From: Candidatus Thermoflexus tengchongensis
Lineage (GTDB): Bacteria; Chloroflexota; Anaerolineae; Thermoflexales; Thermoflexaceae
Assembly: GCA_016842085.1 (NCBI GenBank)
Contig: JAEVEX010000040.1
Span: forward strand, 1-64,000
DNA: 64,000 nucleotides
Reading direction: 5' to 3'
Part shown: positions 1-9,533 of the stretch, one piece after another
Position numbering within the stretch: the first letter of the stretch is position 1
How the letters are laid out: every line of letters begins with the position of its first letter
The notes under the pieces: generated by a model
The model's input: the letters and a program-made list of their open reading frames with translations, nothing else
Database searches by the model: none
Told to the model about the DNA's origin: nothing
Position numbers and translations under genes: made by a program

Positions 1-21
1 GCCGGAGCCCTGGGGGGCTTT

Positions 22-1514
22 GCCTCAATCGAACCAGCGTGGGATTGAAACTGGGCAAGGTCCTGGCGTGAGGATGAAAAAACTGCTGCCTCAATCGAAC
101 CAGCGTGGGATTGAAACCACCAGACAGAGCGCTCAGGATGCCTAACGCAACGAGCCTCAATCGAACCAGCGTGGGATTGAAACCCGCCCCCGGGGGGATC
201 CCCCGCCCCCGGACGGCCAGCCTCAATCGAACCAGCGTGGGATTGAAACGACGGCATCGGTGAGATACTGGCCCAAGCCGGCCGTGCCTCAATCGAACCA
301 GCGTGGGATTGAAACCCCGGTGGTGCTGCTGGCGGCGCTGCTGATGATCAACGCCTCAATCGAACCAGCGTGGGATTGAAACGACGATGCTCCCGGCCTT
401 GGGGGAGGCTGTTCTGGGCCTCAATCGAACCAGCGTGGGATTGAAACGGAAGATATTCATACACCCCGCCCCCCACATATACATGCCTCAATCGAACCAG
501 CGTGGGATTGAAACCAAGGCCAAGTGGGAATGGGAGATCCCTGAGTTGGGGGCCTCAATCGAACCAGCGTGGGATTGAAACTGCACTGGTCTACATCCAG
601 ACGATGCTCCCGGCCTTGGCCTCAATCGAACCAGCGTGGGATTGAAACAAACTCTCAAGGCCAAGCAGCCAGACGAACCGAAGCGGCCTCAATCGAACCA
701 GCGTGGGATTGAAACTGGGCCTGCATGAGTGGGAGCAACATCCTGCACGAGGCCTCAATCGAACCAGCGTGGGATTGAAACACGAGAAGAGATCCCTGGC
801 CGGAATGCCAGAGATCTGCCTCAATCGAACCAGCGTGGGATTGAAACGGGGGGGCGCTATTCGCCTGTCAACCCCGCAGCCCCGCCTCAATCGAACCAGC
901 GTGGGATTGAAACGGATTTGGAAAAGTGGGCTGCTTTGGAGGAACTCCAAGCCTCAATCGAACCAGCGTGGGATTGAAACGGATTTGGAAAAGTGGGCTG
1001 CTTTGGAGGAACTCCAAGCCTCAATCGAACCAGCGTGGGATTGAAACGGTTGACAGAGAGGGAGCTTGGTTTTGAGGAGGAGGTGGCCTCAATCGAACCA
1101 GCGTGGGATTGAAACCACGCGAACGACGGCCTCTCCATGGCCGTCCGGGACGGCCTCAATCGAACCAGCGTGGGATTGAAACGCTATTATCGGGATCGGA
1201 TCTCCAGGCTTAACGATCGCCTCAATCGAACCAGCGTGGGATTGAAACCTTTCCCAAATCCAACCGAGCCCCTCCATCCTCAATAGCCTCAATCGAACCA
1301 GCGTGGGATTGAAACCGGTTCCCGCCGGCCCAGATCCGGGAATGGATGGAGGCCTCAATCGAACCAGCGTGGGATTGAAACTGAGTTGAGGAATACAGCG
1401 AAAATAGTTTGCTCGAGGCCTCAATCGAACCAGCGTGGGATTGAAACAACGCAGATACGATCTGCTTTACAGGGTCGCGCTCCGCCCTCAATCGAACCAG
1501 CGTGTGATTAGAAC
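22..1514 (+). CRISPR. CRISPR array, 23 repeats / 22 spacers
   Basis: A 30-base repeat begins GCCTCAATCGAACC and ends GTGGGATTGAAAC, and recurs at 22, 88, 154, 220, 286, 353, 418, 485, 552, 619, 686, 752, 818, 884, 951, 1018, 1086, 1153, 1219, 1286, 1352, 1418 and 1485. Spacers are 35-38 bases. The first 22 copies are identical. The copy at 1485 has four changes, so the right end is the old, leader-distal end; the leader and any cas genes should lie left of the window. The ATTGAAAC 3' end is the usual 8-base crRNA handle of type I-B and type III systems, which implies transcription along the + strand. The subtype is inference because no cas gene is visible. Spacers 914-950 and 981-1017 are identical. 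Spacers 383-417 and 582-618 overlap by 19 bases. Confidence 0.98.
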
Positions 1515-1550: not shown

Positions 1551-1584
1551 CAACTTAATCAAACCAGTTAGAGCAGGTTGAAAA
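1551..1584 (+). repeat. Vestigial CRISPR repeat at array end
   Basis: The sequence ACTTAATCAAACCAG (1553-1567) followed by GGTTGAAAAG (1575-1584) resembles the two ends of the array repeat. It sits about one spacer length (36 bases, 1515-1550) after the last recognisable repeat. A small insertion separates the two halves. It is read as a 24th, decayed repeat. Confidence 0.6.
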
Positions 1585-1673
1585 GTGTCTCTCCCGATGA
1601 GGGCGGTGGCAAAAGGGCAAATCTTCATCGAATCATAACGAGATCAAAACGAAGCCACTGTATGGAGCCTAAG

Positions 1674-3533
1674 ATGATTCAAGTGGACCCCACATGGATT
1701 GACCTGGCAGAGGGAATGCGGCGCATGGAGGAATGGCGCCGACAGGCTGGAGAGATATGGCCTCCTCGCCTGCAGAGGCTGCAGAAGGAGATCGAAGCCC
1801 GAGAGAAAAGATATCACGCTATCCGGCTTCTCAGCAGCGAGCCGCTCCAGCGGTGGCTCGAGGAGCGGAAACAATGGCTGGAAGATGCTACGCGCCGCTA
1901 TGAGGCAGCACTGCAGGCCTGGCGGTCCCATCAGCAGATTCAAAAACAGCTGGAAATGTGGATCAATGAGGTCACGGCTCTTCTGCCAGCCTGGAGATCA
2001 TGGACCGAGAAATATTCGGAATGGAACGAGGAGATGAGCCAATGGTACGGGAAGTTTCTCCAAAGCGCAGAGGTGATAAGGCGCGCGGCCCAGGAGCTGA
2101 TTGAATGGCACCGCGCTTTCATGGGGTGGATCGAAGAACGTAAGCAGGAAGGAAAGCGGGCAGAGGAACTCCACGAGGCAGCCAGCCGCTTCTCTCAGGC
2201 TCGGGAGGTGCTGAAGGAAGAGCGAAAACGCCTTCTGATGTCGAGGATCGATCAGGAAGCCTCCCGTGTTTTGCGCCGTATATGGGTCTCCACTCTGGTC
2301 TTTATGGGGACTTTCCCCTCCCTGGCCTGCATTTCGGCCCTTGCCCTTTTCAATGTCATCCCGGAAAGCCTCTGGCACCCGGCTGTGGGGATCCTCTTCG
2401 CCTCTGCCGCGATCAGCGCGCTGAGCCCCGCCTTTCTGCAGCAGCGTCTCCAGAGGCTCGCCGATCAACGGAAGGCCATTCAGGCTCTGAAACCCTCCCT
2501 GCCGGAGATCCCTGACCTGCCTCAGCCCCCTGCTGTCGCTCCAGCGTATCCGCCCCCACCCCCAGCCCTGCCCCCTCTGAAAAAGTCCGCATGGACATGT
2601 CCAGACCCTCCACCTCCGCCTCCTCCCCCACCGGATATACAGTTCGTGAGATCGCTGGAGCTTCCTATGCCATCCCCACCCCGGCCGGAGGATTTCCCAA
2701 AGCCGCCTCCTCCCCTTTTGCCCCTGGATTCGTTGAAGGCTGCGCTGGAGGACCTGCGGGCCGCTGCGGACTTGCTGGATGCCGCCGCCGCAGCACTCCA
2801 TCGGATGCTTCAAACCTCCTGGCACGAACTCCTGAGCACGGAACGAGCAACCCCACAGGAGGATCCGCTGATGGAAGCCCTGGCGGATCTCCCCGATGAC
2901 TTCCTCGTTCTGCGCTGGCTGCGAATCGAAGAAGAGGTGGTGATCGAGACGGCTATCGTCGGGCCGAACGGGATCTGGATCTTTGTCCATCTGCCCTATT
3001 ACGGGATGCTGGAGCGCCAGGGAGATCAGTGGCGCTATCGCGACCCTCGATCCGGGGATGAGCGGATCCTGCAAAACCCGCCGGATCGCCAGTGGGAAAG
3101 ACAGAAGGAAAAAGTCCTGGAGATCCTCCACGCCCATCCCACCCTGGCAGGAATCGACTGGGAGAATGCTATCCGTGGTGGCCTGGTGCTTCGGCCAGAT
3201 GCTCGCCTGAGGGGAAGAAGGCCCCCCATTCCATGCCTGAATCCGGCAGGCTGGCGGCAGGCTATCTCGGAGACCGAAGCGCTTCCATTTCTGGAGCCCA
3301 TAAGGCGTTTGCAGGTCTGCGAATCCCTGCTGCAGGCAGCCCGCTCCCCCGAGCTATCCGACCAGGCCCTCTCTTCGGTCCTGAAAGCGGTGGAGACTCA
3401 TACGCAGCGAATCGAGAAGGATGTGGATGCAGCGGCATCCATGGCGGAGGAGCGAATCAGCGCCTTTGATCGGGCGCTTCACGAGCTGTTGCGTCTCAGC
3501 GGGGAAATCGGAAACCAGGAGGAAATCCCATGA
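1674..3533 (+). CDS. Coiled-coil / membrane / NERD-like protein
   Basis: About 619 aa, not a family I recognise as a whole. Residues 1-195 are charged and predicted coiled coil, rich in Glu, Arg, Gln and Trp. Residues 200-258 hold one or two membrane segments (STLVFMGTFP; VGILFASAAISAL). Residues 280-350 are a Pro-rich linker with runs of 5-9 prolines. Residues 405-510 resemble a NERD (nuclease-related) domain, with VIETAIVGPNGIW followed by a QNPPDRQW stretch like the family's NP..Q. The E-x-K usually following the VGP.G strand is replaced by V-H-L, so catalysis is doubtful. Residues 510-619 are helical again. I chose ATG 1674 because GGAG lies six bases upstream; ATG 1662 and TTG 1578 are in frame, and the latter falls in the decayed CRISPR repeat. 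It overlaps the next gene by ATGA. Confidence 0.75.
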   Translation: MIQVDPTWIDLAEGMRRMEEWRRQAGEIWPPRLQRLQKEIEAREKRYHAIRLLSSEPLQRWLEERKQWLEDATRRYEAALQAWRSHQQIQKQLEMWINEVTALLPAWRSWTEKYSEWNEEMSQWYGKFLQSAEVIRRAAQELIEWHRAFMGWIEERKQEGKRAEELHEAASRFSQAREVLKEERKRLLMSRIDQEASRVLRRIWVSTLVFMGTFPSLACISALALFNVIPESLWHPAVGILFASAAISALSPAFLQQRLQRLADQRKAIQALKPSLPEIPDLPQPPAVAPAYPPPPPALPPLKKSAWTCPDPPPPPPPPPDIQFVRSLELPMPSPPRPEDFPKPPPPLLPLDSLKAALEDLRAAADLLDAAAAALHRMLQTSWHELLSTERATPQEDPLMEALADLPDDFLVLRWLRIEEEVVIETAIVGPNGIWIFVHLPYYGMLERQGDQWRYRDPRSGDERILQNPPDRQWERQKEKVLEILHAHPTLAGIDWENAIRGGLVLRPDARLRGRRPPIPCLNPAGWRQAISETEALPFLEPIRRLQVCESLLQAARSPELSDQALSSVLKAVETHTQRIEKDVDAAASMAEERISAFDRALHELLRLSGEIGNQEEIP

Positions 3534-3805
3534 AGCGTGGAGGAATCGGCTCATGGGGGGATATCCTGGGTTTGATGAGCATCGTCCTGTCCGCATGCTT
3601 CCCCCTTCCGGGAATCCTGATAGCCTCCCTGGCGATCGCCATAGGCAATCAGACCCTCTGGGAGATTGAGACTGGACAGAGGGTGCCGGATGAGGCCCCC
3701 CGCGCCCGGATAGCCCGACAGATGGGTTGGGTCGGGATGGCGCTGGGATGGCTGAGCGGGCTGGGCTGGCTGGCGATGCTCGCCCTGCTCCCTCGAACAC
3801 CTTAG
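3530..3805 (+). CDS. Small two-TM membrane protein
   Basis: 91 aa. It overlaps the stop of the NERD-like gene by four bases (ATGA), which suggests translational coupling and a joint function. Two hydrophobic segments, around residues 12-38 (LMSIVLSACFPLPGILIASL) and 66-87, flank a charged loop. The layout resembles small DUF4190-type membrane proteins, but I cannot assign a family. A partner or anchor role for the upstream protein is inference from the overlap only. Confidence 0.75.
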   Translation: MKRGGIGSWGDILGLMSIVLSACFPLPGILIASLAIAIGNQTLWEIETGQRVPDEAPRARIARQMGWVGMALGWLSGLGWLAMLALLPRTP

Positions 3806-4279
3806 CTACCCGCTCAGCCGCCTGGGATGGATAGGACGATCCATTGTGGATTCTGTCGTCTCGGTCACAGGTCCTCAGGAAGCCCCCTCCGGCGCGACAT
3901 CCATGCTGGTCCGCATCCGGGTTCGTCAGGTCGGTGATCACCCCTTTGCTGGACCCAACCAGGATGTGGCGCTGGTGGGTTGGCTGATCGATGAGATCCC
4001 GCGGAACACGCCTTCCTTAACAATTCTGGAGTGGGGATGCATGCGGCGGATATCCAGCATGGGGAGGGAGCTCAATGGGTTCTGGATAAGGCCCAGGAGG
4101 AATGACGTCGATGGCGCCGGATATGAGGCGGCGCAGAGACTGCATGGAACCCACAGGGGATTGAAACGGGGACAGACGAGTGTAAAATGCAAGAAAGCCA
4201 CAAGTCTCAACCAAACTCGCGTGGGATCAGGGCCCCTATCCCGATAAGCATGGGATGGACATCCTCTCAGGAGGCGGCA
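3806..4279. other. Non-coding stretch with CRISPR remnants
   Basis: 474 bases without a convincing gene. An open frame at 3846-4247 lacks a ribosome site and recognisable domains and runs straight through the decayed repeats, so I treat it as chance. The right part holds two CRISPR-like repeats (separate entry), and the last bases form the ribosome site of the next gene. Confidence 0.6.
4138..4233 (+). repeat. Two decayed CRISPR repeats around a 36-base spacer
   Basis: Bases 4138-4167 match the array repeat at 22 of 30 positions, including the complete last 11 bases (GGGATTGAAAC). Bases 4204-4233 match at 20 of 30, including CGTGGGAT. The interval 4168-4203 is 36 bases, a typical spacer length in this array. 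Orientation is the same as the main array 2.6 kb upstream. Counts are by hand alignment without gaps. Confidence 0.8.
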
Positions 4280-5314
4280 ATGTTCGATCAGGCGCTCTCC
4301 AGAAAGGGATGGCATGGATGGATTCCCTGGACCCTGGGAGCCGTGATGGCCCTGGGGATCGGCGGCTGCCTGGCCACCCGCCCGCCCGAGGCGACGCCGG
4401 CCCCGACCCCCGCGCCCACGGCGACGGCCGCGGCGACGGCCGCCCCGACGCCCACCTCCGCCCCCACGCCGGCCCGGGACGCGGCCGGGTGCCCGACGGA
4501 TCCCCGAGAGTGGCGGATGGTGAATCCGTTCCCTGAACAAACCGACCGGCGCTGGTTGCGGATCGAGCCGGACTGCGTCTACCAGGGCCTGGCCAAAAGC
4601 GTGGCCGCCCGGATGCTGATCGACATGGGATGGACCTGGAAGGAGGCGCAGGAGGCCCTGGGGCTCCCCCGCTTCCCGCTCCGCTATCACCCGGTGATCA
4701 CCCTGACCGGCGAGGTGGGCGGATCGCCCTTCTATACCGCCCGGCAATCGGGCATCTTCAGCGCCCTGGTCTGCGACGGCCGAACCCCGGACACATGCCC
4801 GCGGTTCTGGCAGGTCTCCATGGATTCCGATCCCCCGGCCTCCTTCTTCCTGAGCGGCTGCTTCTTCACCCGCGATCTGACGGCCGGCACGGTCCGGGAC
4901 TGGGGGATGCCCTATCCCGTCGTCTGCGCGGTCAAGTATGTCATCCGCCCGTATCAATGGGTGGGGCAATCCTTCGACGGAAAGGATCGTTTCAGGCATC
5001 CATATTCCCAATTATGGGTCATGGGAAGCGAGTTTTACGGATATGATCCGGGAACGAAGGTGTGGTTGAGCATCGGAATCCAGCGCTATTCCTCCGGTCC
5101 GGAGGAGGTTCGAGAGGGGTGGCGGCGGACAGCGGAGATCTATTCGCAGGCTTACGGGCAGCCGATCTGGGATTCGAGGTGGCTGAAGGAGGCGTTCGGC
5201 CTGGGGCCCAAGCCGCTCCCGCCGGGATGGCAGGGCTGGCCGGATCGGATGGAGGAGTTCTACCGGAGCCGTTACGGGGCTCTGGAGATCGCCCTGGAGG
5301 AATGGGGGAAATGA
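4280..5314 (+). CDS. Secreted lipoprotein, unknown function
   Basis: 344 aa. ATG 4280 follows AGGAGG by five bases. The N-terminus is basic, then hydrophobic, then GIGGCLA, a lipobox-like cleavage site with Cys near residue 29. An Ala/Pro/Thr-rich spacer follows (residues 35-65). The exported domain (70-344) has about seven Cys in pairs and no motif I know. The pattern, a lipoprotein with a low-complexity linker, recurs at 5963 and 33659. The next, broken gene starts inside its stop codon (ATGA), so the two form an operon. Function unknown. Confidence 0.8.
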   Translation: MFDQALSRKGWHGWIPWTLGAVMALGIGGCLATRPPEATPAPTPAPTATAAATAAPTPTSAPTPARDAAGCPTDPREWRMVNPFPEQTDRRWLRIEPDCVYQGLAKSVAARMLIDMGWTWKEAQEALGLPRFPLRYHPVITLTGEVGGSPFYTARQSGIFSALVCDGRTPDTCPRFWQVSMDSDPPASFFLSGCFFTRDLTAGTVRDWGMPYPVVCAVKYVIRPYQWVGQSFDGKDRFRHPYSQLWVMGSEFYGYDPGTKVWLSIGIQRYSSGPEEVREGWRRTAEIYSQAYGQPIWDSRWLKEAFGLGPKPLPPGWQGWPDRMEEFYRSRYGALEIALEEWGK

Positions 5315-5795
5315 GGAGCCGCGCGAGGATCCTGCTCTTCGCATCCCTGGTATTCGCCGGGCTGCCGGCAACTCCGGCCCGGGCGCAAGCGGAGTGCCCG
5401 CCGGGTGTAAGCCATGTCGGCGAAAGCAGATTTTGCAAACCGGAGTCCGGCGGGGGGCCGCCCCAGCCTCCGCCGCCTCCCTCGGAAGGGGGGGTGGGGG
5501 GCCGACATGTCCGATCACGTGGCGGGAGGTGGACACTTCCCGCCCTCGCCCGTCGGGCACAGACTACCTGTGCCCGGTGATGGAATACACGCGCGAATGC
5601 GACGGCCGGATTCGCTCCTCCATGGTGGGGTGGGCCAGCTGTCCGGTGGTGCAGCCCCGCTCTCCCCGCAATCCCTGTGTGGATGAGAACGGCTGCCCCC
5701 TCTTCTCCATCGGCCCGGGCGGGATCGCCTGCGGGCGGGCGGGGGCTGTTGCTTCCATGAACCCCCGCTCCAGCCTACAAGGGATTGAGAAACTA
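5311..5795 (+). pseudogene. Cys-rich secreted protein, frameshifted and truncated
   Basis: The gene starts at ATG 5311, overlapping the previous stop, with a clear signal peptide (ILLFASLVFAGLPATPARAQA). A Cys-containing segment and a poly-Pro stretch follow. The reading frame then ends early, at 5580. The coding-like text continues in another frame after 5500 (CPITWREVDTS; YTRECDGR; NPCVDENGCPLF). The switch falls in G7-T-G6 at 5488-5501, so a one-base slip would join the halves. The 3' end runs into the MITE-like element at 5796. It may be a sequencing slip, a phase-variable tract or a true pseudogene. Confidence 0.6.
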
Positions 5796-5910
5796 TTAGG
5801 AGTTACGCAGTTGAGGCGAAATCCAATCCCTTTAATGGCCATATATGGAGGTGATGATGAATTACCCGCTATATATTGGGGGACACACCTGCCAACTGCG
5901 TAAGTCCTAA
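5796..5910. mobile_element. MITE-like element
   Basis: The 18-base ends, TTAGGAGTTACGCAGTTG (5796-5813) and CAACTGCGTAAGTCCTAA (5893-5910), are inverted repeats with one mismatch. CTA flanks both sides (5793-5795 and 5911-5913), a possible 3-base target duplication. The 115-base unit has no coding capacity and is more AT-rich than its surroundings. Ends reading AGGACTTACGCA occur on many insertion sequences, from memory, so it is probably a non-autonomous derivative. It separates the broken gene from the promoter region of the next gene and leaves TATAAT just outside it at 5912-5917. Confidence 0.6.
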
Positions 5911-5962: not shown

Positions 5963-7306
5963 ATGCGAGGCGCTGTCCCGGTCGCTCTGCTGGCTTTCCT
6001 GCTCTTCGGATGTGGGATGAATCCTCCCTCTCCTTCCGCGTTCAAGGCCCAGCCGGAAGCCTTTTCGACCAGAGGGCCCAGCGAGATGTCCTCTCGTTTC
6101 ACCCTCATGCCCACGGGAACGGCTTCTCCCCTTCCCACGGCCACTTCCACACCCCCGGCCTCGATGACGCCGGAGCGCCCGGCCTCGCCGACCCGGCCGC
6201 CTCGGCCTTCCCTTACCCCGACCGCCCCCCGCCCGACCCGAACGTCAGGGCCCTCTCCGACGCCGGCCCCCACTCGCACGCCGGCTCCCACCCGCATGCC
6301 GGCACCCTCCCCGACCGCCGTTTCGAATCCGTCCAGCAACCCCCTCCACCCCCCAGCCCCCCGGCTGGTCCTGGCCAATTATTTCCCCTGGTATGACCCG
6401 GGCACCTGGTCCACCGGCTGCACCTCCGATTCGGACCAGCCCCGGGACGGCGTCTACCACTCCGATGACCCCGGGGTGATCGCCCGCCATATCGGCCAGG
6501 CCCGCGCCGCCGGCATCGATGGCTTCGCCGTCCACTGGTTCGCCCCCGGCAACCGCACGGACGCGAATTTCGAGAAGGTTCTGAATCTCTCGCCGGATGG
6601 GTTCCATTCCACGGTCACCTTCCTCTACCACATCCTCCCCGGAGCCAACCAGCCCGGGGTGGTGGATGCGTTGCGCTACCTCATCTCGCGCCACACGGCC
6701 CACCCCCGATTCCTGCGGGTCGCCGGACGGCCGGTGATCTTCTTCAGCGATATGTATCGGGTCCCCGATGCCGCCGGGAACCGGCCGGCCTCCGATCAGG
6801 ACGTGGCCACCGCCGTGGCCCGCTGGGCGGAGATCCGTCAGGCCGTGGATCCCGCCCACACCACCTGGTGGATCGCCGAAGGGTTGAAGCCGGATTATCT
6901 GGCGGTCTTCGATGGCCTGTATGTTTATAAGATCGACCACGCCTGCTGCCCGACCGCCTACCGCGGGGCCTCACGCTGGGCCGGATGGGTCCGGGATTGG
7001 GAACGACGAACGGGCCAGCCCAAACTCTGGATCGGCACGGTGATGCCGGGATGGGATGACCTGAACTCGGCCCAGCCTCAGTGCGCCGACCTCCGGGTGA
7101 GCAGCGCCCCCTTCGCCCGGGACCGGGAGAACGGGGCTTACTACGCCCGAACCTGGGAGGCGGTGCTGCCCACCCAGCCCGACCTGATCCTCATCCACTC
7201 CTTTAACGAATGGGTGGAAGGCTCTTACATCGAGCCCAGCGTCCGTTTCGGGGATCTCTACCTTCAGCTCACGGCGCAATGGGCGGCTCGATACAGGGGG
7301 CGATAG
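5963..7306 (+). CDS. GH99-like glycoside hydrolase lipoprotein
   Basis: 447 aa. ATG 5963 follows GGAGG by five bases. The signal peptide ends in LLFGC (Cys near residue 17), a lipobox. Residues 45-130 are a Pro/Thr/Ser/Ala linker with repeated TPAPT units. The catalytic-type domain starts at VLANYFPWYDPGTW and ends with IHSFNEWVEGSYIEP, the hallmark of GH99-like (WbsX-like) domains, which are alpha/beta barrels acting on mannose-type glycans. Fold and location are well supported; the substrate is not known. It would act outside the cell, tethered by lipid. Confidence 0.85.
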   Translation: MRGAVPVALLAFLLFGCGMNPPSPSAFKAQPEAFSTRGPSEMSSRFTLMPTGTASPLPTATSTPPASMTPERPASPTRPPRPSLTPTAPRPTRTSGPSPTPAPTRTPAPTRMPAPSPTAVSNPSSNPLHPPAPRLVLANYFPWYDPGTWSTGCTSDSDQPRDGVYHSDDPGVIARHIGQARAAGIDGFAVHWFAPGNRTDANFEKVLNLSPDGFHSTVTFLYHILPGANQPGVVDALRYLISRHTAHPRFLRVAGRPVIFFSDMYRVPDAAGNRPASDQDVATAVARWAEIRQAVDPAHTTWWIAEGLKPDYLAVFDGLYVYKIDHACCPTAYRGASRWAGWVRDWERRTGQPKLWIGTVMPGWDDLNSAQPQCADLRVSSAPFARDRENGAYYARTWEAVLPTQPDLILIHSFNEWVEGSYIEPSVRFGDLYLQLTAQWAARYRGR

Positions 7307-8904: not shown

Positions 8905-9147
8905 ATGGTGCGGAAAATCTTCCGGGCGGGCAACAGCCTCGTCGTCTCCCTCCCCAAGGACATCCTGGACATGCTGGGCCTGGATGAAGGAGCGGAGGTC
9001 TCCGTGGAGATGGACCGGGAGCGGCGACGGATCATCATCACTCCGGTAGATCTCGCTCTCCCCGGCGTCAACGAGGAGTTCGCCCGCCAGGTCACCGAGT
9101 TCATTGAGCAGTACCGCCCCGCTCTGGAGGCCCTGGCCCGGCGATGA
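8905..9147 (+). CDS. AbrB/MazE-type antitoxin
   Basis: 80 aa. Residues 1-45 form a SpoVT/AbrB swapped-hairpin DNA-binding domain (KIFRAGNSLVVSLPKDI; LGLDEGAEVSVEMD). Residues 50-80 are a helical tail that would bind and neutralise the toxin. The stop overlaps the toxin start by ATGA, the classic type II layout. Upstream GAGGA (8890-8894) serves as the ribosome site. Doc toxins are best known with Phd antitoxins; AbrB-type partners are also common in environmental genomes. Autoregulation is expected but not shown. Confidence 0.9.
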   Translation: MVRKIFRAGNSLVVSLPKDILDMLGLDEGAEVSVEMDRERRRIIITPVDLALPGVNEEFARQVTEFIEQYRPALEALARR

Positions 9148-9533
9148 GAGGCCTTACCATTGAGCAGGTGCTCTTCCTCCATGCTCGCCTCATCGAGGAA
9201 ACGGGCGGCGCTCACGGGGTCCGCGACCTCTCCCTGATGGAGTCAGCAGTGGCCCGCCCCTGGGCAACCTTCGGCGGCCGCGACCTCTACCCGGACCTCT
9301 TCTCCAGAGCGGCCGCCCTGATGGACTCCCTGATCCACAATCATCCCTTCGTGGACGGCAACAAGGGCACGGGGATCGCTGCCGCAGCCCTCTTCCTCCG
9401 TCAGAACGGCTATCGTCTCACCGACACGAACGAGGAACTGGAGGGATTCACCCGGCGGGTCGCGGAATCCCGGCGGGGCATCGCGGAAATCGCCGCATGG
9501 CGGAGAACCCACACCGCCCCCGAAGACCGGTAG
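9144..9533 (+). CDS. doc: Doc (death-on-curing) family toxin
   Basis: 129 aa, the normal length for Doc. The Fic-fold core is HNHPFVDGNKGTG at residues 69-81, followed by AAALFLRQNGYRL. Doc proteins phosphorylate EF-Tu and stop translation. The usual end of the motif is D-G-N-K-R-T; here the Arg is Gly (codon GGC), and this residue normally helps hold the nucleotide phosphates. The toxin may therefore be weakened. It is translationally coupled to the AbrB-type antitoxin upstream. Confidence 0.9.
   Translation: MRGLTIEQVLFLHARLIEETGGAHGVRDLSLMESAVARPWATFGGRDLYPDLFSRAAALMDSLIHNHPFVDGNKGTGIAAAALFLRQNGYRLTDTNEELEGFTRRVAESRRGIAEIAAWRRTHTAPEDR

Follow-up and report, generated by a model that had tools for sequence, protein, structure and literature searches.

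CRISPR array and relic repeats

The stretch analysed here (the window) comprises the first 64 kb of contig C13 of a Thermoflexus genome (G000) and starts within a CRISPR array. Past the array end lie two genes for membrane proteins, referred to as the module, followed by a piece of an IS5-family transposase gene, two relic repeats, and a stretch with a lipoprotein gene, a broken gene and a MITE-like element that leads up to a GH99-like gene (Table 1).

Table 1. Features between the start of the window and the right syntenic anchor
Feature	Position	Strand	Remarks
CRISPR array, trailer part	1-1484	+	22 intact repeats; runs off the contig, probably into C86
First degraded repeat	1485-1514	+	26/30; certain
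Decayed repeat with indels	1551-1584	+	gapped score against permutations P = 0.006-0.02; on the array grid; acceptable
Possible decayed repeat	1621-1650	+	18/30; two periods past 1485; P = 0.22 alone, suggestive
Module gene 1, membrane protein of 619 aa	1674-3533	+	Pro-rich linker; C-terminal degenerate NERD domain
Module gene 2, hydrophobic membrane protein of 91 aa	3530-3805	+	orphan; start overlaps the gene 1 stop
Decayed IS5-family transposase gene, internal fragment	4037-4130	+	77-83% DNA identity to the G004 and G003 copies
Relic repeat	4138-4167	+	22/30, ungapped
Relic spacer	4168-4203	+	36 bases
Relic repeat	4204-4233	+	20/30, ungapped
Lipoprotein gene	4280-5314	+	relatives lie at the end of a Flp/Tad-like row of genes in a different family of the class
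Secreted-protein pseudogene	5311-5790	+	frameshifted
MITE-like element	5796-5910	+	terminal inverted repeats; two further copies in the genome
GH99-like gene, right syntenic anchor	5963-7306	+	Pfam Glyco_hydro_99, E = 8.8e-30; in G001-G007

The array is built from a 30-nt repeat, GCCTCAATCGAACCAGCGTGGGATTGAAAC, with a period of 66-67. This repeat terminates in ATTGAAAC, which we take to be the 5′ handle of the crRNA, as in type I repeats generally. On this assumption the array is transcribed from left to right and its right end is therefore the old trailer. In a scan of named species genomes, the repeat core was almost confined to Thermoflexus (Chloroflexota), and the repeat or the flanking genes are common to eight genomes of the same genus. 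On another contig of the window's genome (C47), an array with the same repeat is adjoined by genes for Cas1b, Cas3, Cas7/Cst2 (I-B) and Cas4. Leaders are present on this contig and on C86. With its regular repeats, unique spacers and leader, and with I-B cas genes in the genome, the array belongs to a type I-B-like class.

Contig C86 of the same genome carries 79 repeats and a leader, with a gene for an FAD-dependent oxidoreductase at the leader side. The end of C86, consisting of repeat, spacer and repeat, is identical over 126 bases to window positions 22-147, and this contig appears to be the leader half of the array. The join is one that we infer, because window positions 1-21 do not match C86; it is backed by synteny, since the oxidoreductase gene lies directly beside the GH99-like gene in three congeners (G003, G004 and G006). 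For the 21 discordant bases at positions 1-21, spacer variation between strains or an assembly fork come into consideration. Within the array, two spacers have an identical stretch of 20 bases in common, GACGATGCTCCCGGCCTTGG (383-402 and 600-619), suggesting that their protospacers overlap in a single target, and positions 884-1017 represent a tandem duplication of a complete repeat-spacer unit (67/67 bases).

For the detection of decayed repeats, every window position was scored against the 30-nt repeat and against 400 composition-preserving permutations of it. Permuted repeats reached a mean best score of 18.5 in the rest of the window, a score of 22 was attained in 0.5% of cases, and 0.12 sites of at least 20/30 were expected. 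The two best matches outside the array in the whole window are those at 4138 and 4204, which are spaced by 66 bases, exactly one period, and have the orientation of the array. No other site of at least 19/30 was detected on the + strand beyond 1514. Both are repeats of the window's array as judged by repeat type and spacing only, and their spacer was not shared with any of the 287 spacers of four array segments, all scores lying within the range of shuffled sequences. A preliminary description of this DNA had reported these two right-hand repeats, with their scores, their 36-base spacer and their array orientation, and the permutation scores and the spacing bear it out. The decayed left-hand repeat at 1551 that it had named holds as well, on its gapped score and its place on the grid. 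In addition, we found the degraded repeat at 1485, the weak match at 1621-1650 and the IS5 fragment within the interval. The relics at 4138 and 4204 are better preserved than those at 1551 and 1621, despite their expected greater age.

Module genes and the stretch up to the GH99-like gene

Both genes placed between the repeats in the preliminary description are genuine open reading frames, and their codon usage is host-like. The product of gene 1 begins with a charged N-terminus, followed by a hydrophobic stretch, the Pro-rich linker and a C-terminal NERD-related domain, and similar first residues are found in relatives from other families of the class. A direct Pfam search of gene 1 gave no match, the gathering score of NERD (PF08378) not being reached, and the domain was recognized by alignment with proteins that do match NERD (L068, E = 1.7e-13; L071, E = 1.2e-4). 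At the FEVK motif, relatives read WIFEVKHWRG or WVFEVKYWSG whereas gene 1 reads WIFVHLPYYG. Both the E and the K are replaced, and the protein is therefore probably not a nuclease. An AlphaFold model of the C-terminal 227 residues, computed from the single sequence, was unusable (mean pLDDT 53). A comparable layout is known from SmdA of Staphylococcus aureus, where a membrane segment is combined with a C-terminal NERD-like domain from which several of the best conserved residues of NERD are missing (PMC9040797). This likeness is one of layout, and gene 1 differs in being twice as long and in having the charged N-terminal region and the Pro-rich linker.

In a close-match scan of 84,980 species genomes and of viral contigs, gene 1 was without relatives, and no relative of gene 2 was found in 297 other genomes of the class. 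The module genes matched no Cas family and no PHROGs phage family, and searches of plasmid records, PDB sequences and Rfam were likewise without a match. Among the PADLOC defence profiles, gene 1 matched none and gene 2 only one at a non-significant E = 0.048. Both genes are intact and may be expressed, and a link of the module to CRISPR immunity is not supported. A frame at 3846 was considered as a third module gene and rejected; its codon use is coding-like, but the IS5 fragment, read out of frame, makes up the 3′ half.

G004 contains an IS5-type copy whose transposase gene aligns with the IS5 fragment; this copy matches Pfam DDE_Tnp_1 and DUF4096. Unlike an IS5 element, the fragment is an internal piece with stop codons, both ends of the IS being absent, and it stops 7 bases short of the relic repeat at 4138. 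In the search for a transposon or composite transposon carrying the module, we detected no element ends, no clean target duplication and no flanking IS copies, but only this internal fragment on the right-hand side. The check for a target duplication, which had been proposed in the preliminary description, yielded only a weak similarity over 42 columns of the junctions. It was noticed post hoc (P = 0.003 when searched narrowly, 0.027 when searched more widely), lies partly within coding sequence common to relatives and is not relied on here. Taken as a whole, the stretch from the array to the GH99-like gene looks like a sink for stray DNA.

The locus and other array ends in the genus

Within the genus, the locus occurs in three states, namely without an array, with an array, and with an array and an insert. 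The first is found in G003, G004 and G006, where the oxidoreductase and GH99-like genes are adjacent. In G007, the array runs straight into the GH99-like gene, with terminal repeats scoring 26/30, 24/30 and 19/30 and without the module, and in G008 the oxidoreductase gene and the leader lie at a contig end. The module was detected only in the window's genome, homologues being absent from all eight congeners.

These loci allowed us to evaluate the interpretation given in the preliminary description. Its proposals that the array formerly continued across this point and that the module sits within the old trailer end are supported by G007 and by G003, G004 and G006. The array without the module, for which a search of related genomes had been recommended, is the one of G007. 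Sites lacking both the module and the flanking repeats, which had been named as an argument to the contrary, do occur, but only where the whole array is missing and not in the array-bearing genome without the module. The notion of a special array-embedded cargo is not supported: the genes have no defence or Cas match and no homologue in congeners, and an IS5 remnant lies beside the right-hand relics.

Other array ends of the genus harbour further genes. Beyond the array end on contig C44 of G003 (L099 686-2308) come a broken lipoprotein gene, a 27/30 repeat cutting into a second gene, a small gene and a further relic repeat. The lipoprotein encoded there was considered as a copy of the one in the window and rejected, since the similarity is significant only in the N-terminal CPxDP half. 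In G004 and on contig C3 of G003, a lipoprotein gene of 216-217 aa follows the array and is itself followed by weaker relics, a 22/30 match in G004 and a marginal 19/30 match (P = 0.04) on C3. G004 was also tried as a second empty site, for C44 of G003. This was rejected as a clean test: a 404-aa gene of G003 begins within the flank common to both and is truncated in G004, which by this sequence comparison probably carries a deletion.

In the window's genome, two observations concern contig C47. A frameshifted IS630-like element with terminal inverted repeats (L102 533-1717) splits the array of this contig between perfect repeats, and an 830-aa protein is encoded between the array end and the cas2-cas1 genes (L118 1415-3907). 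The start of the latter is also present at the array end of G008; the protein has no NCBIfam match and its PADLOC match is non-significant. In the handful of loci available, most trailer genes of the genus are co-directional with the array. Genes and IS elements among trailer repeats thus recur, and their contents differ. This fits insertion tolerance better than a shared function, and the trailer is probably a tolerant sink for insertions.

Probable origin of the interrupted trailer

We consider it likely that the old trailer end was invaded by foreign DNA that carried an IS5 element and that the remainder, deprived of its leader, decayed. According to this model, one long type I-B-like array would have been set up between the FAD-dependent oxidoreductase gene and the GH99-like gene. 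Foreign DNA would then have entered the trailer among ageing repeats, bringing along an IS5-family element as well as the genes for the NERD-domain membrane protein and the small membrane protein. Severed from the leader, the repeats on the right-hand side of this insert would have acquired no further units, and by decay only the relics at 4138 and 4204 would be left of them. The IS5 element would have decayed to the internal fragment beside them, and the Tad-type lipoprotein gene, the broken secreted-protein gene and the MITE would have gathered between the relics and the GH99-like gene.

In favour of this model, we count the significant relics in register with the array, the G007 array without the module, the array-free loci of G003, G004 and G006, the leader half on C86 next to the oxidoreductase orthologue, the lack of the module in all congeners, the IS5 fragment, and the IS630-like element and genes among the repeats of other arrays. 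From these observations we infer an insertion rather than a longer rearrangement, as well as an involvement of the IS and the order of events. On the other side we count the lack of a clean target duplication, the better preservation of the right-hand relics, the relic spacer being absent from sister arrays, the 21 discordant bases at the join of C86 and C13, and the internal nature of the IS5 piece. Candidate mechanisms of entry are an IS-borne one, an illegitimate one and an exchange between arrays.

The two right-hand matches are both degenerate (20-22/30) and could in principle have arisen by chance. This possibility is very unlikely, since two such sites, one period apart and in array orientation, stand against the 0.12 expected. 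Another explanation needs no insertion at all: a second small array would have existed beyond the module from the start, in the order array, genes, array, and would have lost its leader and decayed. That only two right-hand units are left, with an unshared spacer, is in line with this, as are the genes between repeats on C44 of G003. However, in G007 there is a single array, running straight into the GH99-like gene with neither a second array nor the module, the module is unique to the window's genome and no second leader was found near 4138. We regard this explanation as rather unlikely.

The module might also be functional cargo linked to the array, its genes being retained in the trailer because the CRISPR leader drives their transcription and they act in defence or membrane stress. 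Gene 1 is intact, has the direction of the array and starts 24 bases past the possible relic at 1621-1650; a search of positions 1400-1720 gave no sigma-70-like promoter, and the co-directional trailer genes of the genus point the same way. We nevertheless hold such a function to be very unlikely in view of the missing module in all congeners, the lack of a defence or Cas family match, the replaced NERD catalytic residues in gene 1 and the different genes held by each trailer, in one case alongside a broken gene. Little credence can likewise be given to the broader idea that type I-B trailers of Thermoflexus are recurrent landing and expression sites for co-directional genes that lodge among ageing repeats, are transcribed from the leader and have their 5′ ends cut by repeat processing. 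Trailer insertion and decay, of which this locus is most likely an ordinary but well-documented case, remains our preferred reading.

Large inserts between repeats have precedent. CRISPR locus F of Sulfolobus solfataricus contains an 899-bp fragment of a pNOB8-like plasmid between two repeats, and mobile elements in CRISPR loci of Sulfolobales were described as rare (PMC4390879). Both there and in Thermoflexus, foreign DNA on the kilobase scale lies between repeats of one array. However, locus F is archaeal and holds a plasmid fragment, whereas the insert described here spans ~2.5 kb and combines a pair of intact genes with an IS5 remnant in a decayed bacterial type I-B-like trailer. Degenerate terminal repeats are well described too, for example in Escherichia/Salmonella (PMC2886076). 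The loss of identity at the leader-distal end is common to these and to the Thermoflexus array, but in the latter the decayed repeats resume past the gene insert.

An array-free site, an array that lacks the module and one that contains it are all available for this locus, which shows how an old array end decays and acquires foreign genes. If tolerance of this kind is general among trailers as sinks, the position of a gene next to a CRISPR array would say less about a role in immunity than is assumed in guilt-by-association screens. If, on the other hand, the module genes were read from the array, the CRISPR transcript would be put to a new use.

Further to the right in the window (8905-9533), overlapping small genes, one AbrB-like and one Fic/Doc-like, resemble a toxin-antitoxin pair by eye.
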